A DNA stretch of 64,000 nucleotides from Nocardia sp. BMG111209 (GTDB lineage Bacteria; Actinomycetota; Actinomycetes; Mycobacteriales; Mycobacteriaceae), in the NCBI RefSeq assembly GCF_000381925.1, contig NZ_KB907307.1, forward strand, positions 1,922,001 to 1,986,000, in the 5' to 3' direction. Both the position numbers and the translations under genes were made by a program. Position 1 is the stretch's first letter, and every line of letters starts with the position of its first letter. Of this stretch, positions 16,076 to 55,971 are shown in pieces. The notes beneath the pieces were generated by a model. It did not search any database. It was given only the letters and a program-made list of their open reading frames with translations, and had not been told where the DNA came from.

Positions 16076-19000
16076 TCAGTGGGTCGCCGAGCCGATCCGG
16101 TCGCTGAGCTCGGAGAGCAGCAGTGCCGCGAGCGCCGTTGGGGTGTCGGCGTCGAAGATCGTGGTGAGTGGCAGGGACAGGCCGGTGATCCGGTTGATCG
16201 AATCGTGTAGTTCCATCGCGGTCAGGGAGTCGAAGCCGAGTTCGCCGAAACGGTGGCCGGGGGCGATCGCGGTGGGGTCCGGGTAGCCGAGCAGGGTGGC
16301 GGCGCGGGCGCGGATCAGGTCCTCCAGCAGGCCCCGGCGGTCGGTGACGTCGAGTTGCGCGAACTCGGCCAGGAATGCTCCCGGTGCGCCTTCGGTGGTG
16401 GTGGCCGCAGACGGGCCGGGAACTGGTTGTGCGGTCGATCGTGTGGTTCGCGGTGGGGTGAGCCAGTACCGGTCGCGCTGGAACGGGTACGTGGGCAGGT
16501 CGATCGTTCGGGCGGAGCCGAAGCAGCGGTCCCAGCGTACCGGCAGGCCACGGACGTATCCGCGGGCCAGGCCGGTGGCGAACTGGTCGAGGCCACCTCG
16601 GCGGCGGCGCAGTGTCGGCAGCACCTGGGCGGATTCGCCGGCTGTCTCCGCGATCGCGGTGGACAGCACCGGATGTGGGCTCACCTCGACGAAGAAGCGG
16701 AAACCGCCGGCTGCCAACGTGTCCACGGTGTCCGCGAAGCGGACGGGATCGCGGAGATTGTCGTACCAGTATCCGGCGTCGGCTTCCGGGCCGTTCAGTG
16801 CGGCCGCGGTCACGGTGGAATACCACGGGATTCGGGCCGCACGCGGGTGCAGGACGGACAGGTGCTCGGTCAAGGCGGCGCGCGCGGGCTCGACATGTGG
16901 TGAGTGGGAGGCGAAGTCGATGGCCACCGGGTGAGCGACGACACCCGCCTTGCGGTATTCGGCGAGCAGTTCCTCGATCTCGCGGTCCGGTCCGGACACC
17001 ACCGTGACTCGCGCGCTGTTGCGAGCGGCGACGGTGATACCGGGTCGGCCGGCGAGTCGTTCCTCGACCTCGGCCGCGGGCGACTGTATCGACAGCATCC
17101 GGCCGGACAGGGCAGCGCAGGCGGCGCCGCGGTGCACCACCACCTCGATCGCCTCGCGCAGGGACAGCACCCCCGCGAGGTGCGCGGCGGCGATCTCACC
17201 GAAGGAGTGGCCGATCACCGCGTCGGGTTCGACGCCGTACCACTGCCACAGTCGGGCCAGCGCCACCGTGGTCGCGAAGACCGCCGGTTGCACGAATTCC
17301 GTGCGCCGGAGGGCGGATTCGTCGTTCGAGACGGCCGTCAGGGACCAGCCCGCGATCTCGCGGATCGCGGCTTCACAGTCGGCCAGCACCGCCGCGAAGA
17401 CCGGCGATGTCTCCGACAGCGCCGAAGCCATTCCCGCCCATTGGGTTCCGTGGCCGGGGAAGACGAATACGGTGCCGCCCCGCACATCCGCGCGGCCGGT
17501 GACGGCGTAACCGGGCTGGCCCGACGCGAGTGCGGCCAGGTCGGCGCGGTCGGCGCCGAAGACCACGGCGCGATGTTCGAGCCGCGCCCGGGTGGTGGCC
17601 AGTGACCAGCCGACGTCCGTGGCGGCCGCACCGCCGTCGAGTACCGCCTGCAGGCGCTCGGCCTGGGCGGCCAGGGCGGCGGGTGTCGCGGCCGAAAGGA
17701 TCAGCGGTAACAGTGCGTTCGTCTCGCCCGGTGCGGGTTCGGTTGCGCCGGAATGCGATCCGGCGGGGGCCGCCTCCAGTATCACGTGGGCATTGGTGCC
17801 GCTGATGCCGAAGGCCGAGACGCTCGCACGGGCCGGGCGATCGGACTCGGGGCAGGGGGTCGCGGCGGTGGCCAGGCGCACCGATCCGGCGGCCCAGTCG
17901 GCATGCGGTGTCGCGGTGTCGACGTGCAGCGTGGACGGGACGACCCGATGGTGCAGTGCGAGCAGCATTTTGATGGTGCCGAGAATTCCGGCGGCGGCCT
18001 GGGTGTGGCCGATGTTGGATTTCAGCGAGCCGAGCAGCAGTGGTTGCGCGCGGTCGTGGCCGTAGGTCGCGAGCACCGCGTTGGCCTCGATGGGATCGCC
18101 GAGGGTGGTGCCGGTGCCGTGCGCCTCCAGGACGTCCACGTCGGCGGGGCCCAGGCCGGCGTCGGCCAGTGCGCGGCGGATCACTCGTTGCTGGGCGGGT
18201 CCGCTCGGTGCGGTCAGCCCGTTCGAGGTGCCGTCGGAGTTGACGGCGCTGCCCCGGACGATGCCGAGAATTCGGTGCCCGGCCCGCTGCGCCGCCGAGA
18301 GTCGTTCCAGGACCAGGACTCCCACGCCCTCCCCCCAGCCGGTGCCGTCGGCCGCCGCGGCGAACGGTTTGCAACGGCCGTCGGCCGCGAGCCCGTTCTG
18401 CTGGGCGAATTCGGCGAAGGCGACGGGGGTGGAGAGCACCGCGGCCCCGGCGGCCAGCGCCAGCGTGCATTCGCCGTATCGCAGCGAGCGCACCGCCAGA
18501 TGCAGCGCCACCAGGCCGGACGAGCAGGCGGTGTCCACGGTGATCGCCGGGCCGTGCAGGTCCAGCACGTAGGCGATGCGGCCGGAGGCGACTCCGCCGG
18601 CGTTGCCGGTCATCATCGCGGCATCCGAGGCCGTGACGACCTCGTAGCTGCGTGGCAGGTAGTCCGAGGCCATCACTCCGGCGAACACCCCGGTATCGCT
18701 GCCGCGCAGCGTTTCCGGGTCGATGCGTGCGTGTTCGATTGCCTCCCAGGCGGTTTCCAGCAGCAGACGCTGCTGGGGATCCATCGTGGCGGCCTCGCGC
18801 GGCGAGATCCCGAAGAAGGCCGGGTCGAAACGGGTGGCGTCCAGGAAGCTGCCGCGCCGGGCATAGCCGGCGTCGGGATCGACGGTCCAGCCGCGGTCGT
18901 CGGGGAAATCGCCGATCGTGTCCCGTCCGGCGGCCAGCAGTTCCCAGAACTCGTCCGGGGACGAGACGCCGCCGGGCACCCGGCAGCCGATCCCGATCAC

Positions 19001-21037
19001 CACGACCGGATCGTCCGCCCGCGCGCTCGTGTTCGCCCCCGAAATCGGGCCCGCTGCGGGCTCCGCACCCGCGTCCCTGATCCCCTCCGAACCTGCGCCT
19101 CCTGCGGACTCCGCACCCGTGCGCGAAGGCGATGCCGCACCGTCCGAAACACGCACGCCTGCCACTGCTTTCGAGTCGAGCAGCGTCGTCAGATGCGCGG
19201 CGAGCAGGGCCGGGGTGGGCAGGTCGTAGGCGGCCGTGGTGGCGACAGGAAGCCCGGTTGCCTCGGCGAGCTGAGTGCTCAGCCGTACCGCGCCGGAGGA
19301 GGTGAGCCCGTAGTCGGTGAACACCTGATCCGGACCGATGGGTTCGGTCGCGCCGACCACCGTAAGTACCTGCGCCCGCACCAGTTCCAGTGCCCGGGCC
19401 CGCTGTTCGGTGGCCGGGAGACCCGACACCGCACGCGTCCAGACCGGATCCGGCTCGGCGGCACGGCGATCCAGCAGTTCGGCCAGCCTGACCCGCGCGA
19501 CCTTGCCCGTGGCCGTGTACGGCAGCCGGTCCAGGATCACCAGCTCCGCCGGAATCCGATACGGTGCTACACCTTTCGCGGTCAGATGCGCAGCGATCCC
19601 GGACAGGGTGATCGAGGCGCCGGGTGAGCGCAGCGTCGCGACCAGGCACGGATATTCGCCCAGCCGCTCGTCCGGGCGGCCGATCACCGCGACGCGGTCC
19701 AGGCCCGGGAGATCATCCAGCAGCGTCTCCACCTCGGGCGCAACGAATTTCAGGCCACCGACATTGATCACCTCGGCGTCCCGCCCGCGCAGCGTGATAC
19801 TGCCGTCGGGGTGCGCCGCGGCTCGATCGCCGGTGCGCAGCCAGCCGTCCGCGGTCAGCGCCGCCCGGGTGAGCTCCGGGTCCCCGAGGTATTCCCGGCA
19901 TCGGAAGTCGCTGCGGAACTGCAACTCTCCGGTCTCACCGGGAGCGCATTCGGCGCCGTCCGCAGTGACCACCCGGGCCCGCGCGCCGGTGACCGGACGG
20001 CCCACGCCCCGGGCGGCGGCATCGTCCGGGTCGTCCGGGCGGGTGAACAGCCCTGCGCCGACCTCGGACATCCCCCACTGCGCGATCACCGCGGTGCCGA
20101 ACACCCGGCGCGCGTCGGCGACCAGGGAGGCGGGTACCGCGGCGCCGCTCACGCGGATCTCACGCAGCTGCAGTCCGGTCCCGCTCTCCTTCTCGCGCAA
20201 CAGGTCCCGGATCTGCGCGGGCGCGGCGAACAGGACGGTGGCGGCGCTGTCCCGGGCCAGTCGCGCCGCGACGCGCGGGTCCCATTCGGGCAGCAGGGCC
20301 TGGCGGCCACCGGTCACCAGGCTCAGATGGACCGACAGCAGACCGAACAGGTGCGTGAGCGGGCCCGCCGCGATCAGGGTGTCGTCGGCCCGCGCCGCGG
20401 CGTCCGCGGCCACCGCGACCGCGTTCGCGATCAGGCTCTCGTGGGTGTGCACGCAGATCTTGGGACGCAACGACGTCGTTCCCGACGACGGCACGAGTAC
20501 GAAGCGGTCGTCCGGCGAGACCTCTACGGGCAGTGGCGCGGTACCGGTCCAGCGGCGCACCGCATGGTCGATCGCACAGTGGCCGCCGGTGCTCTCGTCG
20601 TCGCCACCCACCACCAGAGTCGGCCGCAGCGTGGCGAATTCGGCGCCGAGCGCGGGCAGCAGCGCACGGTACCGGTCCGCGCCCACCGCCAGCGCGACCG
20701 CGCCGGTACGCGCCAGCAGTGCGCGGATCTCGTACGCGCCCAGCGCCATCGGCAGCGGCAGCAGCACCGCTCCGGCGGCGGCGACCGCGACGTGGAGGGT
20801 CAGGAATTCCCAGCAGTTCGGCAGGTGGACGGCGACGACATCGCCGGGTCCGACACCCGATTCCTGGAGGAATCGAGTCAACGCGTCCGATTCGGTACGC
20901 CAGCGGTCCCACGACCGCAATTCGTCGCCGACCCACACCGCGCCGGTGGTCCCGCCCGCGGCCGCGGCGGCCCGGAACAGCGCGGGGAGGGTGCGCGGTC
21001 CGGCGGTTCCGAGCGCGGTCACGGCAGCGGTGTCCAT
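16076..21037 (-). CDS. type I PKS with CoA-ligase loading: CoL-ACP-KS-AT-ACP
   Basis: 1653 residues from the ATG at 21037, which lies inside the end of the upstream ketosynthase gene (19-base overlap, translational coupling). Domains: acyl-CoA ligase/adenylation (res. ~1-540; SSGTTSLRPK, RTGDRAA, TATGKVAR), ACP with Ser in GLTSS (~576), KS (~677-1085; active Cys838 in DTACSS, EAHGTGT, KSNIGHT), AT (~1190-1500) and ACP with LGFDSL (~1600). There are no KR, DH or TE domains and no docking helices at either end. It should activate a free carboxylic acid, load it and extend it once to an unreduced beta-ketoacyl-ACP. AT motifs RTEFVQ, GHSFGE and FASH lean towards methylmalonyl but are not canonical. 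The starter acid is unknown. Confidence 0.92.
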   Translation of the reverse strand: MDTAAVTALGTAGPRTLPALFRAAAAAGGTTGAVWVGDELRSWDRWRTESDALTRFLQESGVGPGDVVAVHLPNCWEFLTLHVAVAAAGAVLLPLPMALGAYEIRALLARTGAVALAVGADRYRALLPALGAEFATLRPTLVVGGDDESTGGHCAIDHAVRRWTGTAPLPVEVSPDDRFVLVPSSGTTSLRPKICVHTHESLIANAVAVAADAAARADDTLIAAGPLTHLFGLLSVHLSLVTGGRQALLPEWDPRVAARLARDSAATVLFAAPAQIRDLLREKESGTGLQLREIRVSGAAVPASLVADARRVFGTAVIAQWGMSEVGAGLFTRPDDPDDAAARGVGRPVTGARARVVTADGAECAPGETGELQFRSDFRCREYLGDPELTRAALTADGWLRTGDRAAAHPDGSITLRGRDAEVINVGGLKFVAPEVETLLDDLPGLDRVAVIGRPDERLGEYPCLVATLRSPGASITLSGIAAHLTAKGVAPYRIPAELVILDRLPYTATGKVARVRLAELLDRRAAEPDPVWTRAVSGLPATEQRARALELVRAQVLTVVGATEPIGPDQVFTDYGLTSSGAVRLSTQLAEATGLPVATTAAYDLPTPALLAAHLTTLLDSKAVAGVRVSDGAASPSRTGAESAGGAGSEGIRDAGAEPAAGPISGANTSARADDPVVVIGIGCRVPGGVSSPDEFWELLAAGRDTIGDFPDDRGWTVDPDAGYARRGSFLDATRFDPAFFGISPREAATMDPQQRLLLETAWEAIEHARIDPETLRGSDTGVFAGVMASDYLPRSYEVVTASDAAMMTGNAGGVASGRIAYVLDLHGPAITVDTACSSGLVALHLAVRSLRYGECTLALAAGAAVLSTPVAFAEFAQQNGLAADGRCKPFAAAADGTGWGEGVGVLVLERLSAAQRAGHRILGIVRGSAVNSDGTSNGLTAPSGPAQQRVIRRALADAGLGPADVDVLEAHGTGTTLGDPIEANAVLATYGHDRAQPLLLGSLKSNIGHTQAAAGILGTIKMLLALHHRVVPSTLHVDTATPHADWAAGSVRLATAATPCPESDRPARASVSAFGISGTNAHVILEAAPAGSHSGATEPAPGETNALLPLILSAATPAALAAQAERLQAVLDGGAAATDVGWSLATTRARLEHRAVVFGADRADLAALASGQPGYAVTGRADVRGGTVFVFPGHGTQWAGMASALSETSPVFAAVLADCEAAIREIAGWSLTAVSNDESALRRTEFVQPAVFATTVALARLWQWYGVEPDAVIGHSFGEIAAAHLAGVLSLREAIEVVVHRGAACAALSGRMLSIQSPAAEVEERLAGRPGITVAARNSARVTVVSGPDREIEELLAEYRKAGVVAHPVAIDFASHSPHVEPARAALTEHLSVLHPRAARIPWYSTVTAAALNGPEADAGYWYDNLRDPVRFADTVDTLAAGGFRFFVEVSPHPVLSTAIAETAGESAQVLPTLRRRRGGLDQFATGLARGYVRGLPVRWDRCFGSARTIDLPTYPFQRDRYWLTPPRTTRSTAQPVPGPSAATTTEGAPGAFLAEFAQLDVTDRRGLLEDLIRARAATLLGYPDPTAIAPGHRFGELGFDSLTAMELHDSINRITGLSLPLTTIFDADTPTALAALLLSELSDRIGSATH

Positions 21038-22158
21038 CCGCCGTCCGGCACGGTCATGGTGAAAACGCCGCAGCCGAAACTCAATCCGAAGGCGACCAGC
21101 AGGCCCTGACCGGCGGGCCGGTGTACCGGCTCGGTCAGCATGAGCGGTACCGAGCAGCCCAGGGTGTTGCCGTAGTCGCGCAGTACCCGATACGAGGACA
21201 CGACCGTCTCGTCGCCGGGTGCGACACCGAATTCCGTGCACAACGCGTCCAGGATCCGGACGCTGCCGGTGTGCACGAGCAACGCCGCCGCCTCGGCAGG
21301 GGTGGCGAGCTTGCACGCCTCGTCGGCCAGTGCCATTTTCACCGTCTCCCGCGCGTAGTAGGCGCCGCGCGGGGTGACCAGAGGGCTGAGGGTGTACCCG
21401 CGCCGCCCGTCGACCACCGGGATATCGGATCCGCCGTCGGGCACCGTGCCGAGTTCGGCGTCCTCCGGCAGGGCGTTGGTCAGATTCGACACCGGGCCGA
21501 ACCGGGGTCCGTCGCCCTCGCCGCCGAGCAGCATGGCCACCGCGGCATCGGCGAACAGGAAGCCGTGCAGCGCGTTCACCGCCTCCTGCCGCTCCTCCGG
21601 CGCCAATTCGAGGAAGTGCCGGTGGAATCCGGGCAGCGGCGGCGACAGCGGGGTGGTCGCCTCGGCGAAACAGACCAGCACCGTCCTACCGGGATGACAG
21701 GCCAGGTACCACCGCGCCGTATCGATGGCCTTCGCCATGGCCGAGCAGCCCATGTACTCGATGCTGAGATTCTGTGCGGTGCGGGGCAATTCCGGCATCC
21801 GCGCGAACATGTCGCAGACCAGGCTCGGCACCAGCCGGCCCGGACTGCTGGAGACGCCGAGCACCAGGCCGATCGACTCCACCTGCTCCGGTGTCCCGGC
21901 GAGACAGCGGCGCGCGGCGCGGACGGCGAGATCGACGACGGGGATACCGATCTCGGGCTCCGCGCCGCGGAACAGGACGTCCGGATAGTTGGTCAGGATC
22001 GAGTGCCGGTTGTCGACGCCGAGGCTGCCCAGCATCTCCTCGAGCCGGTCGGACAGATGTCCCTGCCCGGCGTCGAGCAGTTCATCGGTGGAGTACGCGG
22101 ACCGCGGCAGTTCGGCGGCGATGCCGAGCAGAGACGGGTCGATCATCGTGACGGTCAC
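21019..22158 (-). CDS. thiolase-fold ketosynthase, chalcone-synthase/type III PKS-like
   Basis: 379 residues. The GTG at 22158 is preferred because GAGGTG lies seven bases upstream (an in-frame ATG is at 22146). The catalytic triad of the CHS/KAS III superfamily is visible: Cys in IEYMGCSAMAKAID, His in LVHTGSVRILDAL and Asn in LRDYGNTLGC. The GN motif and FADAAVAMLL fit type III PKS/FAE1-like enzymes more than FabH. It is coupled to the CoA-ligase PKS, so it may build that line's starter or take its product off the carrier. CerJ-like acyl transfer is another option. Enzyme class is sure, reaction is not. Confidence 0.8.
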   Translation of the reverse strand: MTVTMIDPSLLGIAAELPRSAYSTDELLDAGQGHLSDRLEEMLGSLGVDNRHSILTNYPDVLFRGAEPEIGIPVVDLAVRAARRCLAGTPEQVESIGLVLGVSSSPGRLVPSLVCDMFARMPELPRTAQNLSIEYMGCSAMAKAIDTARWYLACHPGRTVLVCFAEATTPLSPPLPGFHRHFLELAPEERQEAVNALHGFLFADAAVAMLLGGEGDGPRFGPVSNLTNALPEDAELGTVPDGGSDIPVVDGRRGYTLSPLVTPRGAYYARETVKMALADEACKLATPAEAAALLVHTGSVRILDALCTEFGVAPGDETVVSSYRVLRDYGNTLGCSVPLMLTEPVHRPAGQGLLVAFGLSFGCGVFTMTVPDGGWTPLP

Positions 22159-22207
22159 AGGTTTTCACCTCGGAATGCGAGCTGGATGTGGGGTGCGGGC
22201 GGTCGCA

Positions 22208-23341
22208 TCAGAGGATCCGATCCGCGACCGGCAGGCCGAGCGCGCCCTGCCCGAAGTTGATCAGCGGCCGTTCCGCGGAGTTCGCGCGGTGCAGGCTGCC
22301 GGTGGTCACGTCACGCCAATGCCGTTCCAGCACATCGGGACTGCGCGCGGCCCGGCCGCCGGCCAGCCGGAACAGGGCCGTGGTCGCGTCCACCGCGCGC
22401 TCGACCGCCCGCACCTGATCGCGGCGGGCCCGCAGGCGCAGATCGAGCGGGATCTCCTCGCCCGCTTCGGCGCAGCGCAACGCGGCGGCGAGATTGTGCT
22501 CCAGTTGCAGTATTCCGGCGTCGATCTCGGCGGCCACGCGGCTGACCCGCTCCGCGACACCGGGGCCGGATTCCCGGCCCCGCATCCGATCGAGGAATGC
22601 CGCGTACGCGCCCTCGGCGGCGCCGAGCAGCGGTGCGGTCACCCCGCCGGGCAGGATGCTGGTGAACGGAAGGCGGTACAGGGCAGGCAGTTCCGAATCG
22701 GGACCGTCCTCGGCATTGTGCTGCTCGGCGTCGTGGACGCGATGCGCGGGCACGAAGGCAGCATCGACGACGAGATCGTGACTACCGGTTCCCGCCAGGC
22801 CCACCGCCTGCCACACCTCGTCGATGGTGCAGTCGGCGCGCGGCAGCAGCAGCGTGAGGTGGGCGCCGGGGGCCGGGTCGTCGGCCGTGGTCAGCGCGCC
22901 CACCATGATCCAACCGGCGTGCTGGCAGCCGGAGGAGAAACTCCAGCGTCCGGACAGTTCGAAGCCACCCGGAACCCGCGTCACCCGGCCCGAGGGCACA
23001 TACGAGGTCGCGATCACCGAATCCGGATCCGCACCCCACACGTCGTGCTGCGCGGCGGCGGAAAACAACGCCAATTGCCATGCGTGCGTGCCGAATACCG
23101 ATGTCACCCAGCCCGTCGACGGGCATCCGGCGGCGAGCGCGCGGACCACGGCGAAGAACTCCACCGGCGAGGCCTCGGCCCCACCGAACTCCCGGGGTTG
23201 CAACATCCGGAACACGCCGGCGTCGGTCAACTCGCGCACGGTGCGATCGGGCACCCGGCGTTCACGTTCGGTGTCCACGGCGCGCGCCGCGATGTCCGGG
23301 ACGAGGTCCCGGATCCGGTCCAGCATCTTGGTATCGGTCAT
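22208..23341 (-). CDS. acyl-CoA dehydrogenase-fold flavin-dependent monooxygenase (HsaA/NcnH-like)
   Basis: 377 residues from the ATG at 23341; an in-frame GTG at 23353 would add four, and neither has a clear ribosome site. The sequence follows the group D two-component monooxygenases: REFGGAEASPVEFF, LAAGCPSTGWV, GRWSFSSGCQHAGWIMVG and the C-terminal HRDV-like stretch HWRDVTTGSLHRA. The catalytic Glu region of true acyl-CoA dehydrogenases is not evident. It would hydroxylate a substrate with reduced flavin supplied by a separate reductase, which is not in the window. It begins the operon with the ketosynthase and the CoA-ligase PKS and likely tailors their product or starter. Confidence 0.8.
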   Translation of the reverse strand: MTDTKMLDRIRDLVPDIAARAVDTERERRVPDRTVRELTDAGVFRMLQPREFGGAEASPVEFFAVVRALAAGCPSTGWVTSVFGTHAWQLALFSAAAQHDVWGADPDSVIATSYVPSGRVTRVPGGFELSGRWSFSSGCQHAGWIMVGALTTADDPAPGAHLTLLLPRADCTIDEVWQAVGLAGTGSHDLVVDAAFVPAHRVHDAEQHNAEDGPDSELPALYRLPFTSILPGGVTAPLLGAAEGAYAAFLDRMRGRESGPGVAERVSRVAAEIDAGILQLEHNLAAALRCAEAGEEIPLDLRLRARRDQVRAVERAVDATTALFRLAGGRAARSPDVLERHWRDVTTGSLHRANSAERPLINFGQGALGLPVADRIL

Positions 23342-23527
23342 CGGCCAATCCACTACGGTTTCGATGTTTTCGGGGGCGCCGGCCGTCGTCGGCCCGATGC
23401 GCCCGGCACGGCAGAGCCTAGAACCGCGGCGAATTCGGAAACAGCGGCGAAAACGACAGATTCGGTACCGGATACGACATTTGCGGCCGGGTCGCGGAAA
23501 TACGTTGCGCGACTTAGGGTGTCTCGC

Positions 23528-24280
23528 GTGATCGACTTACCGGAAACACGCTCCGGCACTGTGTCCGATCCCGGATCCGACCTGTGCGATACCGAGGACG
23601 ACACCCGGCTGGGGCAACTCACAGACTATCTGGCACACCATTGTTCGCGTGCCGTTCTGACCGGACTGCTGGCCGGGCGGGACAGCGGCGATCCGATCGG
23701 CGACCGCCTGGTCCTGGACCATGCCGCGGCGCTGGTGTTCCCGCCCTCGGTGGCCGCGCTGCACCACCGGCTCGTCGCCGCCGGCTTCCGGATCCTGGAC
23801 ACCGTTCCCAGTGTCATTGTGCAGCAACGACTTTGCCAGCGCTACGAGCTCGACCCGGCGCACTGCGCGGTCTCCATCCTGTTCGCCTCCCGCGATCGCG
23901 ACGGCGCGGCGGCACCGCAGCGACTGGAACTGTTCTACCCGGCGCCCACCGCATCGGCCGGCCCCGCGTTGCGACGGGCCCGCGCCGACGAACGTATCCA
24001 CAATCGGGAGACCCATTTCGCCTTCACCGTCCGCGAATTCGATTCGGACACTTATCGTTCGATCCGCGCATATCTCGCCGAATCGGGCGGGCTGCACCCC
24101 GACGGCGGCGGCTGGAATCCGCACGAGCGCAGTCACGGAACAGGTTGCTCGACATTCTATTTCGCGGGTCCGGGGACCGTTCCCGGCAAGCCGTGGCCCC
24201 GGCGCCTGGAAATCATCTGCGGCGGACTGCACGCCGCGGAACTCACCGCGCACGGGGTATTCCCGCCGGGCCGCGACTGA
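23528..24280 (+). CDS. hypothetical protein divergent from the PKS operon
   Basis: About 250 residues from the GTG at 23528. The frame is open far upstream, but that part is antisense to the monooxygenase and ketosynthase genes. The family is not recognised. No signal peptide or membrane helix is seen. The C-terminal half (THFAFTVREFDSDTYRSIRA, then GGWNPHERSHGTGCSTFYF and RRLEIICGG) reads like a soluble alpha/beta barrel with possible ligand residues. It is divergent from the monooxygenase gene with 186 bases between, and its stop is four bases from the AraC-type gene. Its position suggests a role in the cluster, but no function can be given. Confidence 0.65.
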   Translation: MIDLPETRSGTVSDPGSDLCDTEDDTRLGQLTDYLAHHCSRAVLTGLLAGRDSGDPIGDRLVLDHAAALVFPPSVAALHHRLVAAGFRILDTVPSVIVQQRLCQRYELDPAHCAVSILFASRDRDGAAAPQRLELFYPAPTASAGPALRRARADERIHNRETHFAFTVREFDSDTYRSIRAYLAESGGLHPDGGGWNPHERSHGTGCSTFYFAGPGTVPGKPWPRRLEIICGGLHAAELTAHGVFPPGRD

Positions 24281-24284
24281 CCCT

Positions 24285-25259
24285 TCACCAGGCGGAGCGA
24301 GCGGCACGGATCTCCGCGACCGTGACGCCACGCCGCCGCCGGATCAGGGTCCGCAGTGTGCTCGCGTTCTGATAGCCCACCCGCCCGGCCACCGCGTCCA
24401 CCGTCAGCGCGGTGGTGCGCAGCAGTTCGACGGCGCGCTCCAGCCGGATGTCGTGCACGAATTCCTGTGGCGACTTGCCCAATTCGGCCTGCATGGCACG
24501 TTGCAGACCGCGCTCGGAGGCGCCGAGCATCCGGGACACGTCGGCGAGCCGCATCGGCTCGGACAGATTCGTCCGCACCCACCGCTCGAAATCGGCGACC
24601 AGTACGTTACCCCGCGCGACGACCTCCGGAATCACATGCGCCGCTTGGGATTTCCGATTGCCGACCGCCATGTACCGGCTGGTCAGCGTCGCCAAGGCCG
24701 GGCTCTGCGCCTGCACCAGCGACAGCGCCAGATCCAGATGCGACAGCGACGCACCCGCCGTGGTCACCTGGTCTCCCCGGCACAGCGTGCGGCCCTCGTC
24801 GAGTTCCGCCTTCGGATACCGGCGCCGGAACACCGGCCCCAGCCACCAACTCGTCGTCGCGGGCTGCCCGTCCAGCACCCCCGCCTCCGCGAGGAAGAAG
24901 GTACCGGTGCAGGCCCCGGCCAGATGCACGCCCCGCGCGCGCGAGCACGCGATGAGGTCCAGCACCGCGCGGCTCTCGGGCGCCGACACCAATCCGATGA
25001 GCGCCTCGGCCTCCAGCGCCGCGACCGCCGGCACGATCATCACGTCCGCGTCACCGTCGCACTCCGCCAGCGGCACGGTCGGAATGAGATGGCCGTATCC
25101 GGAGCGGACCCCGGCGCCGAACGACACACAGCGCACCGACCACGGCGGTGACGCGTTATCCAGTTCGGTACGAAGCGAATTCGCCGTGTTCAGGGTCTCC
25201 AGCAGCGCGGCCAGCCCGAAGTCGGCAACGCCCTCCACAACGAGAATGACGACGTTCAT
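24285..25259 (-). CDS. GlxA-type transcriptional regulator (DJ-1/PfpI domain + AraC HTH)
   Basis: 324 residues from the ATG at 25259, which gives the usual family N-terminus (MNVVILVVEGVADFG); the frame could extend to 25340. Residues ~1-170 form the amidotransferase-like DJ-1/PfpI domain with the nucleophile-elbow Cys in LAGACTGTFFLAEAG. The C-terminal AraC domain has two HTHs: MRLADVSRMLGASERGLQRA and VDAVAGRVGYQNASTLRTLI. GlxA proteins sense small amide- or amine-like ligands and usually activate nearby genes. It could control the PKS1 operon or the small divergent-region genes. Confidence 0.9.
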   Translation of the reverse strand: MNVVILVVEGVADFGLAALLETLNTANSLRTELDNASPPWSVRCVSFGAGVRSGYGHLIPTVPLAECDGDADVMIVPAVAALEAEALIGLVSAPESRAVLDLIACSRARGVHLAGACTGTFFLAEAGVLDGQPATTSWWLGPVFRRRYPKAELDEGRTLCRGDQVTTAGASLSHLDLALSLVQAQSPALATLTSRYMAVGNRKSQAAHVIPEVVARGNVLVADFERWVRTNLSEPMRLADVSRMLGASERGLQRAMQAELGKSPQEFVHDIRLERAVELLRTTALTVDAVAGRVGYQNASTLRTLIRRRRGVTVAEIRAARSAW

Positions 25260-25455
25260 GTCGGGTACAGTATCCAAAACACCGATCCCGACAACTCCGG
25301 TGAGCCGATCCGGGCGGGATATCGGCAACATCACACGCACCGCGCGGCCGGTATCACCGGCCCGGCCGGGAATTCGACCCCGCTACCGGCCCTGCCCGGC
25401 CGATCGGCCCGCGCAACGGCGCACCCGACGACCGAGCTCGGCGACGAACAGGCTG

Positions 25456-25599: not shown

Positions 25600-26078
25600 C
25601 GGGAACGTCCTTTATTTGCAAGGCCTCAGTGGTCTTGATGCCCCGACAGTACACCACCCGGAACGCCCGCCCGGCCGCCGCGCCGCCCCGCCGAACCCGG
25701 TGCCACGCCCCCGCTCCCGGGCCGCCGCGCACCCGCGCTCGCGGGCGACGGACGTCGCGAACGCGCCGATACCCGATTCCGCTGTCACAGAGGACAATCG
25801 GACCGGACGGTATGCGCGGAGCGCGCCACGGCCGGCCGGTCGCAGGCACTCCGGCCACCGCCGTCAATATCCCGGACGGGAATTCTCGTTCGAAATCACG
25901 ATACATTTCCATGACCGAACGTGATCGATCGAATTGAATTCACGCCGTACCGAAATCATTGACCTGGGTATATTCGCGTGTTGAAGTCTTGATGGCCGCC
26001 GGGACGGGCATCCGGGGTCCACGACAGGGTGGTCACAACCATTGCCCGATTCCGGTCTCACTTCGACGAACGGGTGAA
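25600..26078. promoter_or_regulatory. 479-base divergent intergenic region
   Basis: No gene is recognised between the small basic protein and the ABC importer operon. From about 25860 the sequence is clearly more AT-rich than its surroundings (for example GATCGATCGAATTGAATTC at 25922-25940 and TATATT at 25969-25974). It probably holds the importer operon promoter; no full -35/-10 pair is convincing. Confidence 0.45.
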
Positions 26079-27761: not shown

Positions 27762-28696
27762 CCGAACGGCTGCGCCGGGCAGGGGGGCGGGCCGCCGCGG
27801 CGGTTCTGGTGATCTGGGCGGCGGCCACCCTCACTTTCGCCGGGCTGCAGGCGATTCCGGGCGATCCGGCGCGAGCCATCGCCGGGGGTGTCGCGGCGAC
27901 CAGCTCACCGCAGGTGCTCGCGCAGATTCGCCGGGAGTACGGCTTCGACGCGCCGCTGTACGTGCAGTACGGCCGCTTCCTGGCGCGATTGTCGCGCGGG
28001 GATCTCGGCACGTCGTATCAGCAGCATCGGGCGGTCCGGTCGATCATCGCCGAACAGCTGTGGCCCACACTGTCGCTCGCGGTCGGCGGGCTGTTGCTCG
28101 GGCTGGGGCTGTCGGTGACGGTCGCGGTGTTCACCGCGCAGCGGCGCCGGGTGCGGGCGGTGGCGCGCGCGGCGGAGTTCACCGCGCTGTCGATGCCCAC
28201 CTATTGGGTGGGATTTCTGCTGCTGGCGCTGTTCTCGTTCCGGTGGCGGCTGTTCCCGGTGATCGGCGAGACCGGGTGGCGCGGATCGGTGCTGCCGGTG
28301 GTGACCCTCGCCGTCGCGGTCGCCGGGGTGTTGTCCCAGGTGACCCGGGACGGACTCGAGGATGCCCTGAATCAACCGTTCGCGTTGACCGTTCGCGCGC
28401 GCGGCGCCTCCGAGCTGCGGGTGCGGTCGCGACATGCGTTGCGGCATGCGGCGGCGCCGGTGCTGACGCTGTCGGGATGGATGCTGGGCAATCTGCTCGG
28501 TGGTGTGGTGGTCGTCGAAACCGTCTTCGCGCGTAAGGGTTTGGGGCAGGTCCTGGTGACCGCCGTGCGCGGCCGCGACTATCCGGTGGTGACCGCGCTG
28601 GTGATACTCACGGCGGCGGCCTTCTCGCTGATCTCCCTCGTACTCGATCTGCTGTACCGGCTGGTGGACCCGCGGATCCGGGAGGCCGTCCGGTGA
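27758..28696 (+). CDS. ABC importer permease, DppB type
   Basis: 312 residues with about six membrane helices. The N-terminus (TLTFAGLQAIPGDPAR) and IRREYGFDAPLYVQYGRFLARLSRGDLGTS-like loop are signatures of the DppB/OppB subfamily. The EAA loop (VRARGASELRVRSRHALRHA) contacts the ATPase. It starts within the stop of the binding-protein gene (ATGA) and overlaps the DppC-type gene by four bases. Confidence 0.93.
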   Translation: MTERLRRAGGRAAAAVLVIWAAATLTFAGLQAIPGDPARAIAGGVAATSSPQVLAQIRREYGFDAPLYVQYGRFLARLSRGDLGTSYQQHRAVRSIIAEQLWPTLSLAVGGLLLGLGLSVTVAVFTAQRRRVRAVARAAEFTALSMPTYWVGFLLLALFSFRWRLFPVIGETGWRGSVLPVVTLAVAVAGVLSQVTRDGLEDALNQPFALTVRARGASELRVRSRHALRHAAAPVLTLSGWMLGNLLGGVVVVETVFARKGLGQVLVTAVRGRDYPVVTALVILTAAAFSLISLVLDLLYRLVDPRIREAVR

Positions 28697-46700: not shown

Positions 46701-47573
46701 CTGCGCGTCCGAAAGACGTTCCAGCAGAATCACTCCCGCACCCTCGCCCCAGCCCGTGCCGTCGGCGCCGGCCGCGAACGCCTTGCAGCGCCCGTCCACC
46801 GACAGTCCCCGCTGCCGGGAGAACTCGACGAAGATGCGGGGTCCGGACAGGACGGTCGCGCCCCCGGCGATCGCGAAGTCCACCTCACCGGCGCGCAGTG
46901 CGCGGACCGCCAGGTGCAGCGAAACCAGTGACGACGAGCAGGCCGTGTCGACGGTCAGCGCGGGACCGGTGAATCCGAAGGTGTAGGCGATCCGCCCGGA
47001 CAGCACACTCGCGGCGGTACCCGTGACCAGGTAGCCCTCCACCGCGGGCGGGACATGACCGGGACCGGTCACGTAATCCTGACCGTTGGTGCCGACATAC
47101 ACCCCGGTTCGGCTGCCGCGCAACGTCTCCGGATCGATCCCGGCCCGTTCGAAGGCCTCCCACGTGGTGTGCAGCAGCAGTCGCTGCTGCGGATCCATGG
47201 CGAGGGCCTCGCGGCGGGAGATGCCGAAGAAGCCGGGATCGAAATCGGCGGCGTGGTCGAGGAATCCGCCCCGGCGGGTGTAGGTGGTTCCCGGATGGTC
47301 GGGATCGGGATGGTAGAGACCGTCGAGGTCCCAGCCGCGATCGGCGGGGAATTCGGTGAGGACGTCGCGGCCCTCGGACAGCAACTCCCAGAACTGTTCC
47401 GGGGTATCCGCGCCACCGGGGAACCGGCAGCCGAGCGCCACGACGGCGATCGGTTCCCGACCGGCGTCGGTCACCTCCTGCAGTTGCTGCCGCGTCCGGT
47501 AGAGTTCTTCACTCACCCGCCGCAGCAGATGCCGGATCTTGTCCTCGCCGGCGGTGTCGTCCACAGCGTTCAC
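40707..47573 (-). CDS. type I PKS, N-terminal part: KS-AT-DH-KR-ACP-KS-AT(start)
   Basis: 2288 residues as read. The N-terminal coiled coil ([20 protein letters not shown]) is a docking element. First module: KS with Cys212, AT with GHSIGG and HAFH (malonyl), DH with [10 protein letters not shown] and DAALH, KR with [11 protein letters not shown] (B-type), YSSIAG and YAAAN, and ACP with LGLDSL near 1671. Second module: KS with Cys1904, VEAHGTGT and KSNVGHT, then the first ~20 residues of an AT ([18 protein letters not shown]) before the frame is lost. The first module should give an E-enoyl intermediate; the second should add an alpha-methyl beta-keto unit if the AT in the other frame is made. 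Confidence 0.9.
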
Positions 47574-47598
47574 AGCAATGCCTTTCACGATTCGCGGG

Positions 47599-50500
47599 TC
47601 AGGAGATGCCGAATTCGGAGCCGATGAACTCGATGAGATCGGCGTCGGAGAGTGCGGCGGTGCGCTCGGTCGCGGGCTCATCGGGTGCGGGGGCGGCGAG
47701 TTCGTGCAGCCGCTCGAGCACCACCGCCCGATCGGCGTCGGCCAGGTCGGCGGCCGCCAGTCCGGCGGCGATCCGCTCGAGGTCGCCGAGCAGGCCGTCA
47801 AGCGGGGATCGGCTTGCGGGAGTGACGAGTTCGAGGATGAATTCGGTCAGCGCGGCGACCGTGGGCCGGTCGAACACCAGGGTGGCGGGCAGTTCGAGCC
47901 CGGTCCGCTGCCGCAGTCGATTTCGCAGTTCCACCGACGACAGCGAGGTGAATCCCTGGTCGCGCAGACCGCGGTCGTCGTCGACCGCGTGCTGGTCGGC
48001 GTGGCCGAGCGCCGCCGCCGTCTCCTCCCGGACGAGCGCGCGCACCGCGGTCCGGCGCTCGGAATCGTCCAGTGCGGCAAGCTGTTCGACCGTGCTCACG
48101 GCCGGCTCGGACCGCTGCTGCGGCGGCAGCAGCTCGGTCAGCAGGTGCGCGTGGACGCGGTCCGCGGCGGTCCAGTCCACGTCGGCGACGACGAGGTGTG
48201 TCTCGCCGCCGACCACCGCGCGTTCCAGTGCGGTCAGCGCGGCCTCGGGATCCATCGGCCGTAATCCACTGCGCCGCAACTGTTCCGCCGCGTGCCCGGC
48301 GATCCCGGCACCCGCCCAGTGACCCCAGACGATCGAGGTCGCGGGCAGGCCGAGCCGCCGCCGGTGCCCGGCGAGCGCGTCGAGCGCCGCGTTGCCGGGC
48401 GCGTAATTGGTTTGTCCCGGTGCCGGAATCACCCCCGTGACGGAGGAGAACAGCACGAACGAGGACAGCGCGCGGTCCCGGGTCAGCTCGTGCAGGTGTA
48501 GCGCGGCACCGGTTTTCACCCGGTACACCCGCTCGATCCGGTCCCGATCGAGACCGCCGACCAGGTCGTCGTCCAGTATCGCGGCGGCATGCACCACATC
48601 CGTCAGCGGCCGGTCGACCGGAATATCGGCCAGCACCGCCGCGAGCGCGGCCCGGTCCCCCACATCGCAGGCGACCACGACCGGGCGCGCCCCGGCAGCG
48701 GACAACTCGGCGATCAGCTCCGTCGCACCCGGCGCGTCCGGCCCCCGACGGCTGAGCAGCAGCAGATCCGTGACGCCGTTGCCGGCCAGCCGGCGAGCGA
48801 TCCGCGCCCCGAGCGCACCGGTGCCGCCGGTGACGAGCACCGTCCCGGCCGGCCGCCACCGGCCGGCGACCGCCGGCAGATCGCCCGGCCGCAGCCGCCG
48901 GGTCCAGATCCGGGCGGCGCGTACCGCGAATTCGCGCTCACCGTCCGGCGCACGCAAGGCCGACAGAACCCGTTCGGCGGCACTGCCGTCGGGCTGGGCG
49001 GCTACGTCCACGACGATGCCCGGCCCGAGGCCCCCTTCGGTGACGGCCGCGCCGGTGAACGCCGCGTGCCAGGCGCCCCGGACCGCGACGGGATCGTCGC
49101 CGTCCACCGGTGCGTCGCCGGGGACTTCCGTACCGGTGGTCAGCACACCCAGGGCGGCGACTCGCGGTGCGGCCGCGACCGCCCGGGTGAGTGCCGCAGT
49201 GGCAGCCCGCAGGTCGGCGTCCGCCGCCCCTACTGCGAGCGGCAGCAGGGAGACCACCGTGCTCGCATCGCCGGGCACCCCGGCCAGCCCGGCGGCCAGT
49301 GCCGCTCCGGTGACGGTCGCGGGATCGACACTCAGATCGCGCACGACCGCGCCGCGGCGGGTGAGTTCGGTGCGCAGGGCCGCCGCCCATTCGCCGGCGC
49401 CGTCGGGCACCACCAGCACCCAGGACCGACCGTCCTCGGAGGCGGGGTCGGCGAGCGCACGCGGCTCCCAGTGCGCGCGGTGGATCCACCCGTCCGTACG
49501 CCGTTCGGCGGCGGGTGCGTGCACCCAATACCGTTGGCGCTGAAAGGCATAGGTGGGCAGGTCGGTCCGGGGCGCCGCGGGCACGAGCGCGGTCCAGTCC
49601 ACATGGTGCCCGTGGGTGAACAAGGTGGCGGCGGCCGCGATCAGGCCCGTGACCTCGTCGCGGTCGCGGCGCAGGGTCACGACGACGGCACTCCCGTCGA
49701 GCGTGCCGGACAACGCGGGAGCCAGCACGGCGTCGGCGCTCAGTTCGACGAATGTGCCGACCCCCGCATCCGCCATCGCGCGGGCGGCGTCGGCGAACCG
49801 AACAGTCCCACGCAGGTGGCGCACCCAATGGTCGGGGTCGGCCAGTTCCACACCGGTCGTCTCGCGACCGGTGTGATCGGAGAAGATCCGCGGACCACCG
49901 ACATCACTGAAGGCCGATTCCGCTGCGATGGAACGGAATTCGTCGAGAATCGGATCCATCGCCGCGGAATGGAAGGCATGCGAGACGGTCAGCCGCCGCG
50001 TCCGCCGGCCCGCCGCCGACAGTGCGTCGGACACCGCCGCCACGGCAGCATCGGGACCCGAGATCACCACTGCCCGTGGACCGTTCACCGCCGCGACGGA
50101 CACTGTATCCGCCGATCCACCGGCGATGATCGCCGCGCGCACCTCGTCCTCGGTGGCCTCGACGGCCGTCATCGCCCCACCCGCGGGCAGCGAATCCATC
50201 AACCGTCCGCGGGCGGCGACCAGACGCGCAGCCTCCGCCAGCGGAAGTGCCCCGGCCACATGCGCGGCCACCACACCACCGATCGAATGACCTGCGACCG
50301 CGGCGATCTCGATACCCCAGGACTCCAGCAGCCGGTACAGCGCCACCCCCACCGCGAAGATCACCGGCTGGGTGTAGAGCGTCCGGTCGATCAGCCCCTC
50401 GGTGCCCGCCACGCCGAAGGCGATGTCCCGCACCGAGAACCGGGTCGTATCCCCCAACTGCCGATCCAGGAGTGCGACCGTTGCGTCGAACGATTCCCGG

Positions 50501-53500
50501 AACACCGTGAAGCGCTCGTACAACCGGCGCCCGGCACCGGCCCGCTGACTGCCCTGCCCCCCGAAAACCACACCCACGCTGCCGGATCGGGGCGCCGCGG
50601 CGCTGACAATGTTCGCCGCCGCACCCCCCGCGGCCAATGTTCGCAATCCGGCGCTCAGCGCCGCCGCGTCCTCCGCGATCACCACCGCGCGGGTGGCGAA
50701 GCTCGCGCGATCACGAACCAGCGCCGAGGCGACGGCCGCCGGAGCGGCGCCTGTCGCCGGATGACCGGCCAGCCGGTCGGCCTGAGCGCGCAACGCGGCC
50801 GGCGTGCGGCCAGACAGCACGTACGGCACCGGGCCGACCGGATCCGCCGACACCAGCGCGACCAGCTCCCCCGAAACCTGCTCGGCCGGACCCCCCGGCA
50901 CCCGCTCGGCCCGACCCACCGACACCTGCTCAGCCCGACCCACCGACAGCTGCTCGGCCCGACCTCCCGGCAGCTGCTCGGCTCGCCCCGGCGGCACCTG
51001 CCTGGCCCGGCCCGGCGGCAGCTGCACGGCCCGACCCACCGGCAGCTGCACGGCCTGACCCAGCGGCACCTGCCCGGCCAGATCTCCCAGCACCTGCCCG
51101 GCAGAACCCGCCGGTACCTGCCCGGCCGCGTCCCCCGGGACCTGCTCGGCCGGATCCCCCAGCGCCCGCACCGCCGGGATCAGCGGCGGCGCCTCCTCGA
51201 TGATCACGTGCGCGTTGGTCCCACTGATCCCGAACGACGAGACGGCGGCACGCCGAGGCCGAGCCTCCCCTACCCATCGCTGCGGCGCGGTGACCGGACG
51301 CAGCGCGCCCGCGGACCAATCCACGTGTGGCGAGGGCGGTTCCGCGTACAGCGTGGCCGGGATGAGCTGATGACGCAGGGCGAGAACGACTTTCGTGATA
51401 CCGGCAGCCCCGGCAGCGGCCTGGGTGTGGCCGATGTTCGATTTCAGCGACCCCAGCCATACCGGTTCGGCGCGGTCGCGTCCGTAGATGTCCTGCAAGG
51501 CCTGCGCCTCGATCGGATCCCCGAGCGCGGTCCCGGTGCCGTGCGCCTCGATCGCGTCCACCGCCGTGGCGTCCAGCCCGGCGTCGGCGAGGGCCTCCCG
51601 GATGACCCGCCGCTGCGCGAGGCCGTTGGGCGCGGTCAGCCCGTTGGACGCGCCGTCCTGGTTGACGGCGGTACCGCGCACCACAGCCAGCACCTCGTGC
51701 CCGAGCCGGCGCGCATCCGACAATCTCTCCACCAGCAGCAGACTCACGGCCTCCGACCAGCCGGTGCCGTCGGCGGCGGCGCCGAACGCCTTGCACCGCC
51801 CGTCCCCCGCCAGCCCGCCCTGCCGCGCGAACTCGGTGAACATGCCGGGGTTCGCCATCACCGTCACACCTCCGGCGACCGCGAGATCGGCCTCCCCCGA
51901 CCGCAGCGCCCGCACCGCCAGATGCAGCGCCACCAGCGACGACGAGCAGGCGGTGTCCACGGTCAGCGCCGGCCCGGACAATCCGAACGTATAGGCGATC
52001 CGCCCGGACAGCACACTCGGCGAGGTACCGGTCAGCCCGAATCCCGCAGCGGCAGCGCCCAACTCGTGCAAGCGGGGCCCGTACTCCGAAGGCCCCGCAC
52101 CCAGATACACCGCCGTGCGACTGCCGGCGAGCGAGGTCGCGACGATACCGGCACGCTCGAACAGCTCCCACGCCGATTCCAGCACCAACCGCTGCTGGGG
52201 ATCCATCGCCGCCGCTTCCCGAGGCGAGATGCCGAAGAACTCGGCATCGAAATCCGCTGCCTCGCTGAGGAATCCACCGCCATACGTCAACCCACCGGCC
52301 GAGTCCAGCAGCGCACCGAGGTCCCAGCCCCGATCGACCGGCAGCGCGCCGATCGCCTCTCCACCGGCGACGAGCAGATCCCACAGCCGCTCCGGCGAAT
52401 CGTGCCCACCCGGGAAACGCCCGCTCATGGCCACGATTGCGATCGGTTCCGCAGCGGAACCGGACAACCGCGCGGCAACCGCAACCGAATCCCCCTCCAG
52501 CACAGAGTCTTCCGAACCCGGCCCCACCCCCAGCAGATCGGCGAGATGAGCCGCGAGCGCCGCCGGGGTCGGATGGTCGTAGACCACGGTCGCCGCGACC
52601 GCGACACCCAGCCGACGGGTCAACGCAGTGGCGAGCTCACTCGCACCGAGCGAGTCCAGCCCGAGATCGCGATAGGTACTACCGAAGTCGAGTTGCCGCG
52701 GATCGGAATGACCCAGCACGGCCGCAGTCACGGCCCGCACGACCTCCGGAAGAGCCCCGGGACGCGCTGCAGCCGAGGGGATCTCGGCTACCGACTCGCC
52801 CGGCCGGGGTGAGACGTGAGACCCGTCCAACCGGGGCGGGATACCCGACTCGTTCGACCGGGATGCGATCGGCGGCCCGTCCGGCCGAGGTGGGATCACC
52901 GATTCATCCAACCCGAGTGCGATCGGCGGCTCGGCCGACCGGGGTGGGATCGTCGGCTCGGTCAACCCGAGTGCGATCGGCGACCCGTCCGGTCCGGCTG
53001 GGACCGGCAACCCGTCCGACCGGGGCGCGACCGGCGACCCGGCCGACCAGGGCGGGATCGGCGGCCCGGCCGGGTTGATCGGGGTCTGACCGTCCGGGCG
53101 GCTCGGGGTCTCGATCCACAACCGCTCCCGCTGGAAGGCGTAGGTGGGCAGGTCCAGGCGGGCCGATGGCGGCACGATTGCGGTCCAGTCGACGTGATGA
53201 CCGTTGGTGTAGGCCACGGCCGCCGCGGTCAGAACCCCGGCGATCTCGTCGCGGCCCGTGCGGAGAGTCGCGCCGACTGCCACCTCGGTGTCATCGCGCA
53301 GGGTGGCGGCGACCATCGGTGTCAGGACGGCGTCGGGACTCAGTTCGAGGAAGACACCGACCCCCTCCGCGCGGAGGGTGCGCACGGCGTCGGCGAAGCG
53401 GACCGTGCCGCGCAGGTGCGCGGACCAGTACCGCGGATCGACCGCCTCCGCCGGGGTCAGCCGGGCGCCGGTTGCGTCGGAGATCACGACCGATTGCGGT

Positions 53501-55971
53501 GCGGTGAAGGACAATTCGGCGATCGATGCCTCGAAGTCACCGAGGATGGGCTCCATCGCGGCCGAATGGAACGCATGCGACACCGTCAGCCGCTTCACGC
53601 GCCGACCGGCCGCGGTCAGTTCCCCGGCGAGCTGCGACACCTCCGGCTCGGGGCCCGAAACCACCACTGCCCGAGGGCCGTTCACCGCTGCCACGGAGAG
53701 CGGCGATCCGATGTGCGCGACGGCGGTGCGGATCTCGGTCTCGTCGGCTTCGACGGCGAGCATGGCGCCGCCCTCGGGCAGCGAGTCCATCAGTTTCCCG
53801 CGCGCCGCGACCAGGCGCGCGGCATCCGGCAGGGGCAGCACCCCGGCCAGATGCGCGGCGACCACGCCACCGATGGAATGCCCGGCGAGGGCGGCGATCC
53901 GCAGCCCCCACGATTCGAGCAATCGGTAGAGCGCGACCTCCACGGTGAAGATCACCGCCTGCGCGTAGACCGTCCGGTCGATCAGCCCCTCGGTGCCCGC
54001 CGCGCCGAAGGCCACGTCCCGCACCGAATGATCCACCGCCCCTTCGAGATACCGATCGAGCAGGTCGGCCGAGGCGTCGAAGGACTGGCGGAACACCGCG
54101 AACCGCTCGTACAACTGCCGGCCCGCACCGGCGCGCTGGCTGCCCTGCCCGCCGAAGACGATCCCGATACCGCCGCGCGCCCCCGAGCCCGTGATCACGC
54201 CGGCCGTCGCGGCACCGTCCGGCAGACCGGCCGCGCGGGCCGCAAAGGTTGCGTGATCGGCGGCCAATACTACTGCGCGATGGCCGAATTCGGCACGACC
54301 GCGGACGAGGGTGGAAGCCAACGCCGGCAGCGCTGGCCCGGACCCGCCGACGAAGTCCGCCAGCCGCGCCGCCTGCGCGACCAGAGCCGGGACAGTGTGC
54401 GCCGACACCACGAACGGGAGCACCTCGTCGCCGCTCGCCCCCTCATCGCCGATCGCCCGCTCGTCGCGGTTCGCCCCCTCATCGCCGTTTACCCCGTCGC
54501 CACGGTTCGCCCCGCCATCGCGGTTCGCCCCGCCATCGCGGTTCTCCCCGCCATCGCGGTTCGCCCCGTCATCGCCGATCGCCCGCTCGTCGCCTATCAC
54601 CCGCTCGCCACGGTTCGCCACCTCGTCGCGGTTCGCCTCCTCATCGCGGTTCCCCTCGCCGCCGACGGCCGATTGCGCCCCCGGCCCGCCCGGTCCCTCC
54701 TCGACGATCACATGCACATTCGTCCCACCCATGCCGAACGAACTGACCCCCGCCACGAGCGGCCGATCCGGATGCGGCCACGGTCCGGTCGCGGCCACCA
54801 CACGCAGGTTGGCGCCGGTCAGATCCAGTGCCGGAGCGGGGTTGTCGTGCCCGAGCGTGGCCGGGATCTGCCGATGCCGCAGGCCGAGTACGACTTTCAG
54901 CAGCCCGACCAGGCCGGCCGCGCCTTCCAGGTGACCGACGCTCGGCTTCACCGATCCGACCGGTAGCGGGTCGCCCGGCCGGCGCGCCCGGCCCACGGCG
55001 TCGCCGAGCGCCGCCGCCTCGACCGGATCGCCGATGCGGGTTCCGGTGCCGTGCAACTCCACGTACTGCAGGTCGGCCGGATCCACTCCGGCGCGGCGCA
55101 GAGCCCGCCGGATCGCCGCCGCCTGCCCGGCGGCGTCGGGCACCGTCAGCGCGGGGCCGGCACCGTCGTTGGTGATCGCGGTCGACCGGAGCACGGCGTG
55201 GATGCGATCGCCGGCGGCGACGGCCCGGTCCAGCGGTTTCAGCAGCAGCACGACCGCGCCCTCGCCGCGCACGTATCCGTCGCCGGCGGCGTCGAACACC
55301 GAGGCGTGCCCGGTTTCGGAGACGCCGCCGAAACGTTCCGCGATCAGCGCGCCGCCACGGGTCAGATTCAGGTTCACCGCGCCGACGAAGGCGGCATCGG
55401 ATTCCCCGGCGGCGATGCTCGCGCACGCCAGATGAACGGCGGTCAGGCCCGACGACTGGCCGGAATCGACGGTGAAGCTCACGCCGTGCAGGTCGAACGC
55501 GTAGGAGACGCGGTTGGCGAGCATGCCGCGACTCGTCCCGGTCAGCGTGTGCCTGGTCACGGCCGCGTCGCCGGCTTCCTGCAGGACCGCGGCGTAGTCC
55601 GCCGCCATCGCCGCGGCGAACACACCCGTGCCCGTACCCCGCAGGCCGGTCATCGGGATGTTCGCGTCTTCGGCTGCCTCCCAGGCCAATTCGAGCAGCA
55701 GGCGTTGTTGCGGGTCCATCGCGCGCGCCTCCCGCGGCGAGATGCCGAAGAACCCGGCGTCGAACTCGTCGATCCGGTCGAGGAAGCCGCCGTACAGGCC
55801 GGCGATCCGCGGGTCCGCGCGCCACCGGGTGGCCGCCGGCGCACCCAGCGAATTTCCGCCCGTTGTCAGGAGATTCCAGAATTCACCGGGATCACGAGCG
55901 CCGGGAAGTCGGCACGAAACTCCGACGACCGCCACCGCGAGTGGTTTCTCTGCATACCGAAAATCGTTCAC
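47599..55971 (-). CDS. type I PKS, loading and first module: KSQ-AT-ACP-KS-AT-KR-ACP
   Basis: 2790 residues from a GTG with GGGAG upstream. The first KS (~12-430) has Gln172 in DSGQSS where the active Cys should be, while HGTGT and VGH histidines remain; this is a KSQ that decarboxylates malonyl-ACP to make an acetyl starter. Loading AT (~607-953): GHSIGG and HAFH, malonyl. ACP: LGLDSL near 1107. Module 1: KS with Cys1342, AT with HAFH (malonyl), no DH, KR (~2380) with [11 protein letters not shown] (B-type), FSSVTG and YAPGN, and ACP with GFTSLSS near 2674. The C-terminus looks like a docking region ([12 protein letters not shown] ... FIGSEFGIS). There is no N-terminal docking helix, as expected for the first protein. 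Confidence 0.95.
50830..51165 (-). repeat. 24-bp tandem repeat in the module-1 KS-AT linker
   Basis: Fourteen 8-residue units (residues 1603-1714), for example [24 protein letters not shown] and VSVGRAER, with a 24-bp DNA period. The ends are more diverged than the middle, as in arrays grown from the centre. Confidence 0.9.
52771..53067 (-). repeat. 27-bp tandem repeat between loading AT and ACP
   Basis: Eleven 9-residue Pro-rich units (residues 969-1067), for example [27 protein letters not shown] and GPPIASRSN. The 27-bp period is kept in frame. Confidence 0.85.
54421..54654 (-). repeat. 18-bp tandem repeat in the KSQ-AT linker
   Basis: Thirteen 6-residue units (residues 440-517), consensus ANRDGG/ANRDEx, with three adjacent near-identical copies of the 18-mer ATCGCGGTTCGCCCCGCC around 54508-54562 on the plus strand. 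The segment is polar and probably disordered. Confidence 0.92.

Follow-up and report, generated by a model that had tools for sequence, protein, structure and literature searches.

Introduction

Counterparts of the locus analyzed here have been described in Streptomyces and Nocardia. The gon cluster of Streptomyces caniferus (PM100117/PM100118) holds a polyketide synthase (PKS) line with a KSQ-type ketosynthase (KS), coenzyme A (CoA)-ligase-acyl carrier protein (ACP) proteins, and two KSIII genes within one cluster (PMC4763440), and Nocardia asteroides has been described as carrying a longer cluster that runs from a KSQ to a thioesterase (TE) (PMC4035055). A window of 64,000 nt from Nocardia sp. 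BMG111209 (G000:C1:1922001-1986000; host genome 9.14 Mb in five contigs) contains components of these kinds in two blocks: block A (16.1–25.3 kb), in which a CoA-ligase PKS (PKS1) is accompanied by a condensing enzyme (KSIII), and block B (25.9–57.3 kb), in which three proteins (PKS2, PKS3, and PKS4) lead from a KSQ to a TE. An earlier note on this DNA placed both in one PKS cluster, proposed that their products may be joined or may be two unrelated compounds, and remarked that few such pairings are known, a remark weakened by the PM100117/PM100118 cluster (PMC4763440).

Comparison with relatives makes it very probable that the window holds two self-contained biosynthetic clusters that are neighbors in this genome, block B being an orphan KSQ modular PKS and block A a small separate pathway, because each block is whole in relatives that lack the other one. 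Each is ordinary in kind and of a known type of cluster; among the literature titles and abstract openings surveyed there was no report of either block, and the available portion of PMC7413640 held nothing pertinent to them. The distinction has practical consequences. Cluster-calling tools would likely annotate both blocks as one hybrid cluster, so that their products would be sought as a single molecule; the relatives place the border between the blocks at about 25.4–25.9 kb, and the halves can therefore be studied apart.

Occurrence of the Two Blocks in Relatives

Block A stands without block B at the same locus of a closely related strain, Nocardia sp. alder85J (G110). Positions 16076–25358 of the window align to this genome in four pieces at 81–89%, and positions 57339–63977, which cover a GGDEF-like gene (recognized by eye), hemH, inhA, and the sequence beyond, align in three pieces at 77–90%. 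Both aligned flanks sit within one 23-kb stretch of alder85J, and the interval between them is 31,980 nt in the window (25359–57338) vs. ~5.1 kb in alder85J, where it is filled by open reading frames (ORFs) that by eye encode a secreted lipase-like protein, a short-chain dehydrogenase (SDR), and a MarR-like protein. The other matches above 100 bits between the 25.4–57.3 kb region and alder85J were four KS-length pieces (70–75%), all onto the KS of the alder85J PKS1, and we read these as paralogy. A genome-wide search of alder85J with the PKS4 TE at E ≤ 1e-40 gave no match. A genome with a single block in the same place, which the earlier note had named in advance as refuting its proposal, was thus found. 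The gene order HsaA-like monooxygenase, KSIII, PKS1 is shared by alder85J, G114, and G141, and PKS1 ends after its ACP without a docking end in all three cases compared (window, alder85J, and G141).

The reverse situation was observed in five genomes (G021, G022, G023, G024, and G104), in each of which 55 kb around the TE was read. All five keep the order seen in the window, i.e., substrate-binding protein, two permeases, double ATPase, SDR, SnoaL-like protein, PKS4, PKS3, PKS2, and LysR-type regulator, and their accessory genes match those of the window at 64–91%. The PKS4 stretch of G104 and G021 is best matched by a different KS of the window, yet the ORF ends in a TE. A loose motif scan of the five relatives, which covered KS, acyltransferase (AT), dehydratase (DH), ACP, and TE, recovered these domains in the same order; the exceptions were sites that the patterns missed (the two KS of G104 PKS2 and several of the HAFH motifs) and spurious additional hits. 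The G022 sequence aligns in pieces to 25879–57285, which accounts for 31,407 of the 31,980 nt missing from alder85J, and the aligned part stops near the outer genes of block B itself. KSIII had no match in the five genomes (E ≤ 1e-40), and no full-length PKS1 was found among their PKS1 matches at E ≤ 1e-200. All 56 of these (46–55%) begin at residue 656 or later, so that the ligase-ACP part is never covered and the matches represent KS-AT paralogs without a ligase. Neither block A nor the hemH-inhA flank was matched in the 55 kb around the TE of these genomes.

Co-conservation of the blocks, a check proposed in the earlier note, was surveyed over 150 genomes of the genus, with KSIII as the marker of block A and the PKS4 TE as that of block B. 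At E ≤ 1e-40, KSIII was present in nine genomes, the window's own included, and the TE in 20, six of which carry orthologs at 71–100% (the window's own genome; G022, 91%; G023, 85%; G024, 73%; G104, 72%; G021, 71%). The remaining 14 TE genomes, at 37–45%, were treated as containing paralogs, as was a second TE of G104 (38%); one of the 14, G117, is also a KSIII genome, and its TE of 45%, which lies ~2.16 Mb from KSIII on the same contig, was likewise counted as a paralog. Both markers (KSIII plus a TE of at least 70%) co-occur only in the window's own genome (1/150). The idea of one PKS cluster is contradicted by alder85J, with block A at the same locus and no block B, and by the five genomes that carry block B without KSIII or a full-length PKS1; of the two outcomes proposed, unrelated compounds are favored and joined products disfavored by the independent occurrence of the blocks.

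Several considerations weigh against this separation. The failure of the markers to overlap is numerically unsurprising (0.27 expected; P(0) = 0.76), and a KSQ cluster without a PKS4-type TE escapes the marker survey. The blocks adjoin in the sole genome that holds both, and the absence of a TE from PKS1 leaves scope for a partner elsewhere. A PKS of the block A type can stand alone, as illustrated by a second such protein of the same genome (L003; ligase-ACP-KS-AT-ACP-TE) and by relatives in G114 and Streptomyces (L021) that end in a TE.

It is highly improbable that the two lines belong to one pathway in which KSIII transfers the PKS1 acyl chain to a hydroxyl of the KSQ-line product. Such a route would fit the adjacency of the blocks, the position of KSIII beside a TE-less PKS1, and the precedent of PM100117, where KSIII genes accompany a KSQ line and CoA-ligase-ACP proteins and where the joining step is itself a proposal (PMC4763440). 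However, each block is complete where the other is missing, and KSIII accompanies PKS1, ligases, or ammonia lyases, with KSQ-cluster genes in none of 11 relative loci; the sole KSQ-cluster match above 60% near a KSIII (61%, G118) lies inside that locus' own CoA-ligase PKS. The blocks also have separate regulators, and PKS3 is broken in the window. Less likely still is an ancestral single cluster whose halves were lost in different lineages, which would likewise yield genomes with one block each, but the 55-kb surroundings in the five KSQ genomes match neither block A nor the hemH-inhA flank, the aligned part of block B stops near its own outer genes (25879, 57285), and Streptomyces has block A relatives with KSQ-cluster genes absent from the 21 kb read. 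Given two separate clusters, block B would have arrived beside block A as one unit, the alternative being its loss in alder85J. No tRNA genes occur within the window, and a tRNA-borne insertion was rejected for this reason.

Organization and Predicted Product of Block B

The three synthases of block B are encoded on the minus strand. PKS2 (47599–55971) has the domain order KSQ-AT-ACP-KS-AT-KR-ACP, where KR denotes a ketoreductase. Its first KS contains VDSGQSSG, in which Gln replaces the active Cys, and its second contains VDTACSSS; the first AT carries the motifs GHSIG/HAFHS, and we take GHSIG/HAFH in this loading AT to denote the malonyl type. Gln is retained in the loading KS of all six genomes with the cluster, in G104 as LDSAQSSG by eye. 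PKS3 (39187–47588, starting at about 47573–47588) consists of docking-KS-AT-DH-KR-ACP-KS-AT-ACP, and PKS4 (32651–39181) of KS-AT-DH-KR-ACP-TE. The N-terminal end of PKS3 matches the Pfam Docking family PF08990 (22.8 bits; cut-off 20.9), and docking-like ends were recognized by eye at the C-termini of PKS2 and PKS3 and at the N-terminus of PKS4. The PKS2 C-terminal and both PKS3 ends are alike in 6/6 genomes, and the PKS4 N-terminal end in 4/6, the pattern having failed in G024 and G104.

Colinearity rules were used to predict the chain. The KSQ would decarboxylate a malonyl unit to provide an acetyl starter, PKS2, PKS3, and PKS4, joined in that order via their docking ends, would contribute four further units, and the PKS4 TE would release or close the chain. 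By AT motif, the extenders are malonyl in PKS2, malonyl and methylmalonyl in PKS3 (GHSQGE/YASH), and malonyl in PKS4, and the reductions in module order would be KR, DH-KR, none, and DH-KR. The chain predicted in this way is the 11-carbon 9-hydroxy-4-methyl-5-oxo-deca-2,6-dienoic acid, C11H16O4, or its lactone, C11H14O3.

In the window, complete open frames from KSQ through TE were not encountered, PKS3 being split into two overlapping frames (40707–47801 and 39187–41712) with the break inside the AT of the second module, near 40.7–40.8 kb. Because PKS3 is a single open frame in all five relatives, the break represents a strain lesion or a sequencing error. The KSQ line may accordingly be silent in the window strain, unless the split is such an error.

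The accessory genes of block B lie on the plus strand. A four-gene importer of the peptide/nickel class (26073–31327) comprises a substrate-binding protein (26073–27761), two permeases (27758–28696 and 28693–29550), and a double ATPase (29543–31327); the ATPase passes the cut-offs for both nikD and nikE, and the substrate-binding protein and permeases score under the cut-offs of named families. An SDR gene (31324–32091), whose start overlaps the ATPase stop, and a gene for a SnoaL-like protein (32146–32571), with an NCBIfam match under its cut-off, follow, and a LysR-type regulator gene (56360–57283) lies at the far end of the block. The importer operon and the SDR and SnoaL-like genes accompany the KSQ cluster in 6/6 genomes, a set that is unusual for a polyketide cluster, and this constant presence of the importer may point to uptake of the block B product or of a complex containing it. 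Between the KSQ cluster and hemH, a GGDEF-type protein (by eye) is encoded at 57306–58778, and its alignment to alder85J, at 77%, is lower than the 90% of hemH-inhA.

Block A and its Condensing Enzyme KSIII

All block A genes lie on the minus strand. PKS1 (16076–21037) has the order CoA ligase (AMP-binding)-ACP-KS-AT-ACP, supported by matches to AMP-binding, AMP-binding_C, KS, AT, and two PP-binding stretches; KR, DH, and TE matches were sought in the same domain search and none was found. The protein terminates directly behind its final ACP. The earlier description of the two lines agrees with these domain contents: the PKS at 47599–55971 starts with a KSQ followed by a malonyl-type AT and an ACP, the one at 16076–21037 starts with a CoA-ligase-ACP and has neither docking ends nor a TE, docking-like ends (PF08990 on PKS3, the others by eye) place the three block B proteins in order, and the two assembly lines load differently. 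No docking match that would link PKS1 to the KSQ protein, a possibility also considered in the earlier note, was seen by sequence; PKS1 ends after an ACP, and PKS2 begins with a KS.

The KSIII gene (21019–22158) shares 19 nt at its stop with the start of PKS1. It is preceded upstream, on the same strand, by a gene for an HsaA-like protein, the oxygenase component of a two-component flavin monooxygenase (22208–23353), which passes the NCBIfam HsaA equivalog marginally (452.5 bits; cut-off 450), a match that carries no implication of a role in steroid degradation. The AraC-type regulator gene (24285–25340) adjoins block A in alder85J (87%) and lies ~12 kb off in G114 (64%). A second CoA-ligase PKS of the genome (L003, G000:C1:289447-295242) is 50–52% identical to PKS1 and ends in ACP-TE.

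The closest solved structures to the ligase part of PKS1 are salicylate- and dihydroxybenzoate-AMP ligases, and no NCBIfam equivalog scored above its cut-off for this part. The AT motif (GHSFGE/FASHS) is not diagnostic for extender specificity. The ligase domain would activate an acid, probably aromatic, and the ACP would pass it to the single KS-AT-ACP module for one extension. The resulting beta-ketoacyl chain on the second ACP would probably be removed by the co-transcribed KSIII, and the HsaA-like enzyme may hydroxylate a phenol.

KSIII is intermediate between KAS III and type III PKS enzymes. Residues C138, H296, and N331, presumably a Cys-His-Asn catalytic triad, are invariant across 48 aligned sequences. 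In the predicted structure (mean pLDDT 87), the nearest folds among the 50 matches listed are type III PKSs (TM about 0.67–0.75), with CylI at rank 5 of these matches. The triad and thiolase fold of KSIII are also common to KAS III and are thus not decisive. Sequence profiles place KSIII between type III PKS and KAS III, with NCBIfam scores far under cut-offs, and a Pfam search including Chal_sti_synt gave no match at 1e-6; its relatives match PF08541 and, in part, PF00195 or PF08392. The 11 relative KSIII loci contain a CoA-ligase PKS in six cases, a separate ligase-like gene in seven (some have both), and an HsaA-like gene in three. Four Nocardia loci (G088, G106, G117, and G148) carry ORFs belonging to one cluster, and the ORF of G148 encodes an aromatic amino acid lyase. 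These ligase and lyase neighbors point to aryl or cinnamoyl-type acids. Several Nocardia genomes have relatives of KSIII (L043:8362-11331 and others) in an uncharacterized phenylpropanoid-like gene set, next to an aromatic amino acid lyase, a CoA ligase encoded separately, and an FAD oxidoreductase.

Block A is probably a small aryl-acid pathway. A more tentative proposal, and a doubtful one, sees it as an actinobacterial type I/type III-like hybrid: PKS1 would load an aryl acid, carry out one unreduced extension, and hand the chain from its last ACP to KSIII, which would extend it and close it to a phenol or pyrone for hydroxylation by the HsaA-like enzyme. Release ends vary among relatives. 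The PKS1 relatives of G141 and alder85J end without a TE, as in the window, and those of G114 and Streptomyces L021 end in a TE, as does L003; the L021 protein also has DH-KR. The TE of G114 speaks against KSIII as the sole release route, although the cyanobacterial MerD also bears a TE where CylD bears an ACP (PMC8086630). Block A provides a compact system for asking whether a type I PKS is unloaded by an actinobacterial KSIII, or type III PKS-like enzyme.

Comparison with Known Systems

The cylindrocyclophane (cyl) type I/type III hybrid of cyanobacteria resembles block A through CylI, whose fold ranks among those nearest to KSIII. However, KSIII and CylI share only ~20% identity, KSIII is by sequence not a canonical type III PKS, and it has no cyclization loop of type III PKSs recognizable by eye. 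The gon cluster resembles the window as a whole, with a KSQ loading module on its main line, a CoA-ligase-ACP-loaded PKS (GonP8), and KSIII genes (PMC4763440). It differs in that its 20-module line and naphthoquinone side unit are described there as giving one compound, whereas the blocks of the window occur apart in relatives, and in that GonP8 is described with KR and DH domains, neither of which is present in PKS1. Block B finds its counterparts in short clusters of modular type I PKSs in Nocardia and Streptomyces that run from a KSQ to a TE, with which it shares the KSQ start, docking-linked proteins, and TE release; it is distinguished from them by having only four extension modules and by the peptide/nickel-class importer, SDR, and SnoaL-like genes retained in 6/6 carriers.

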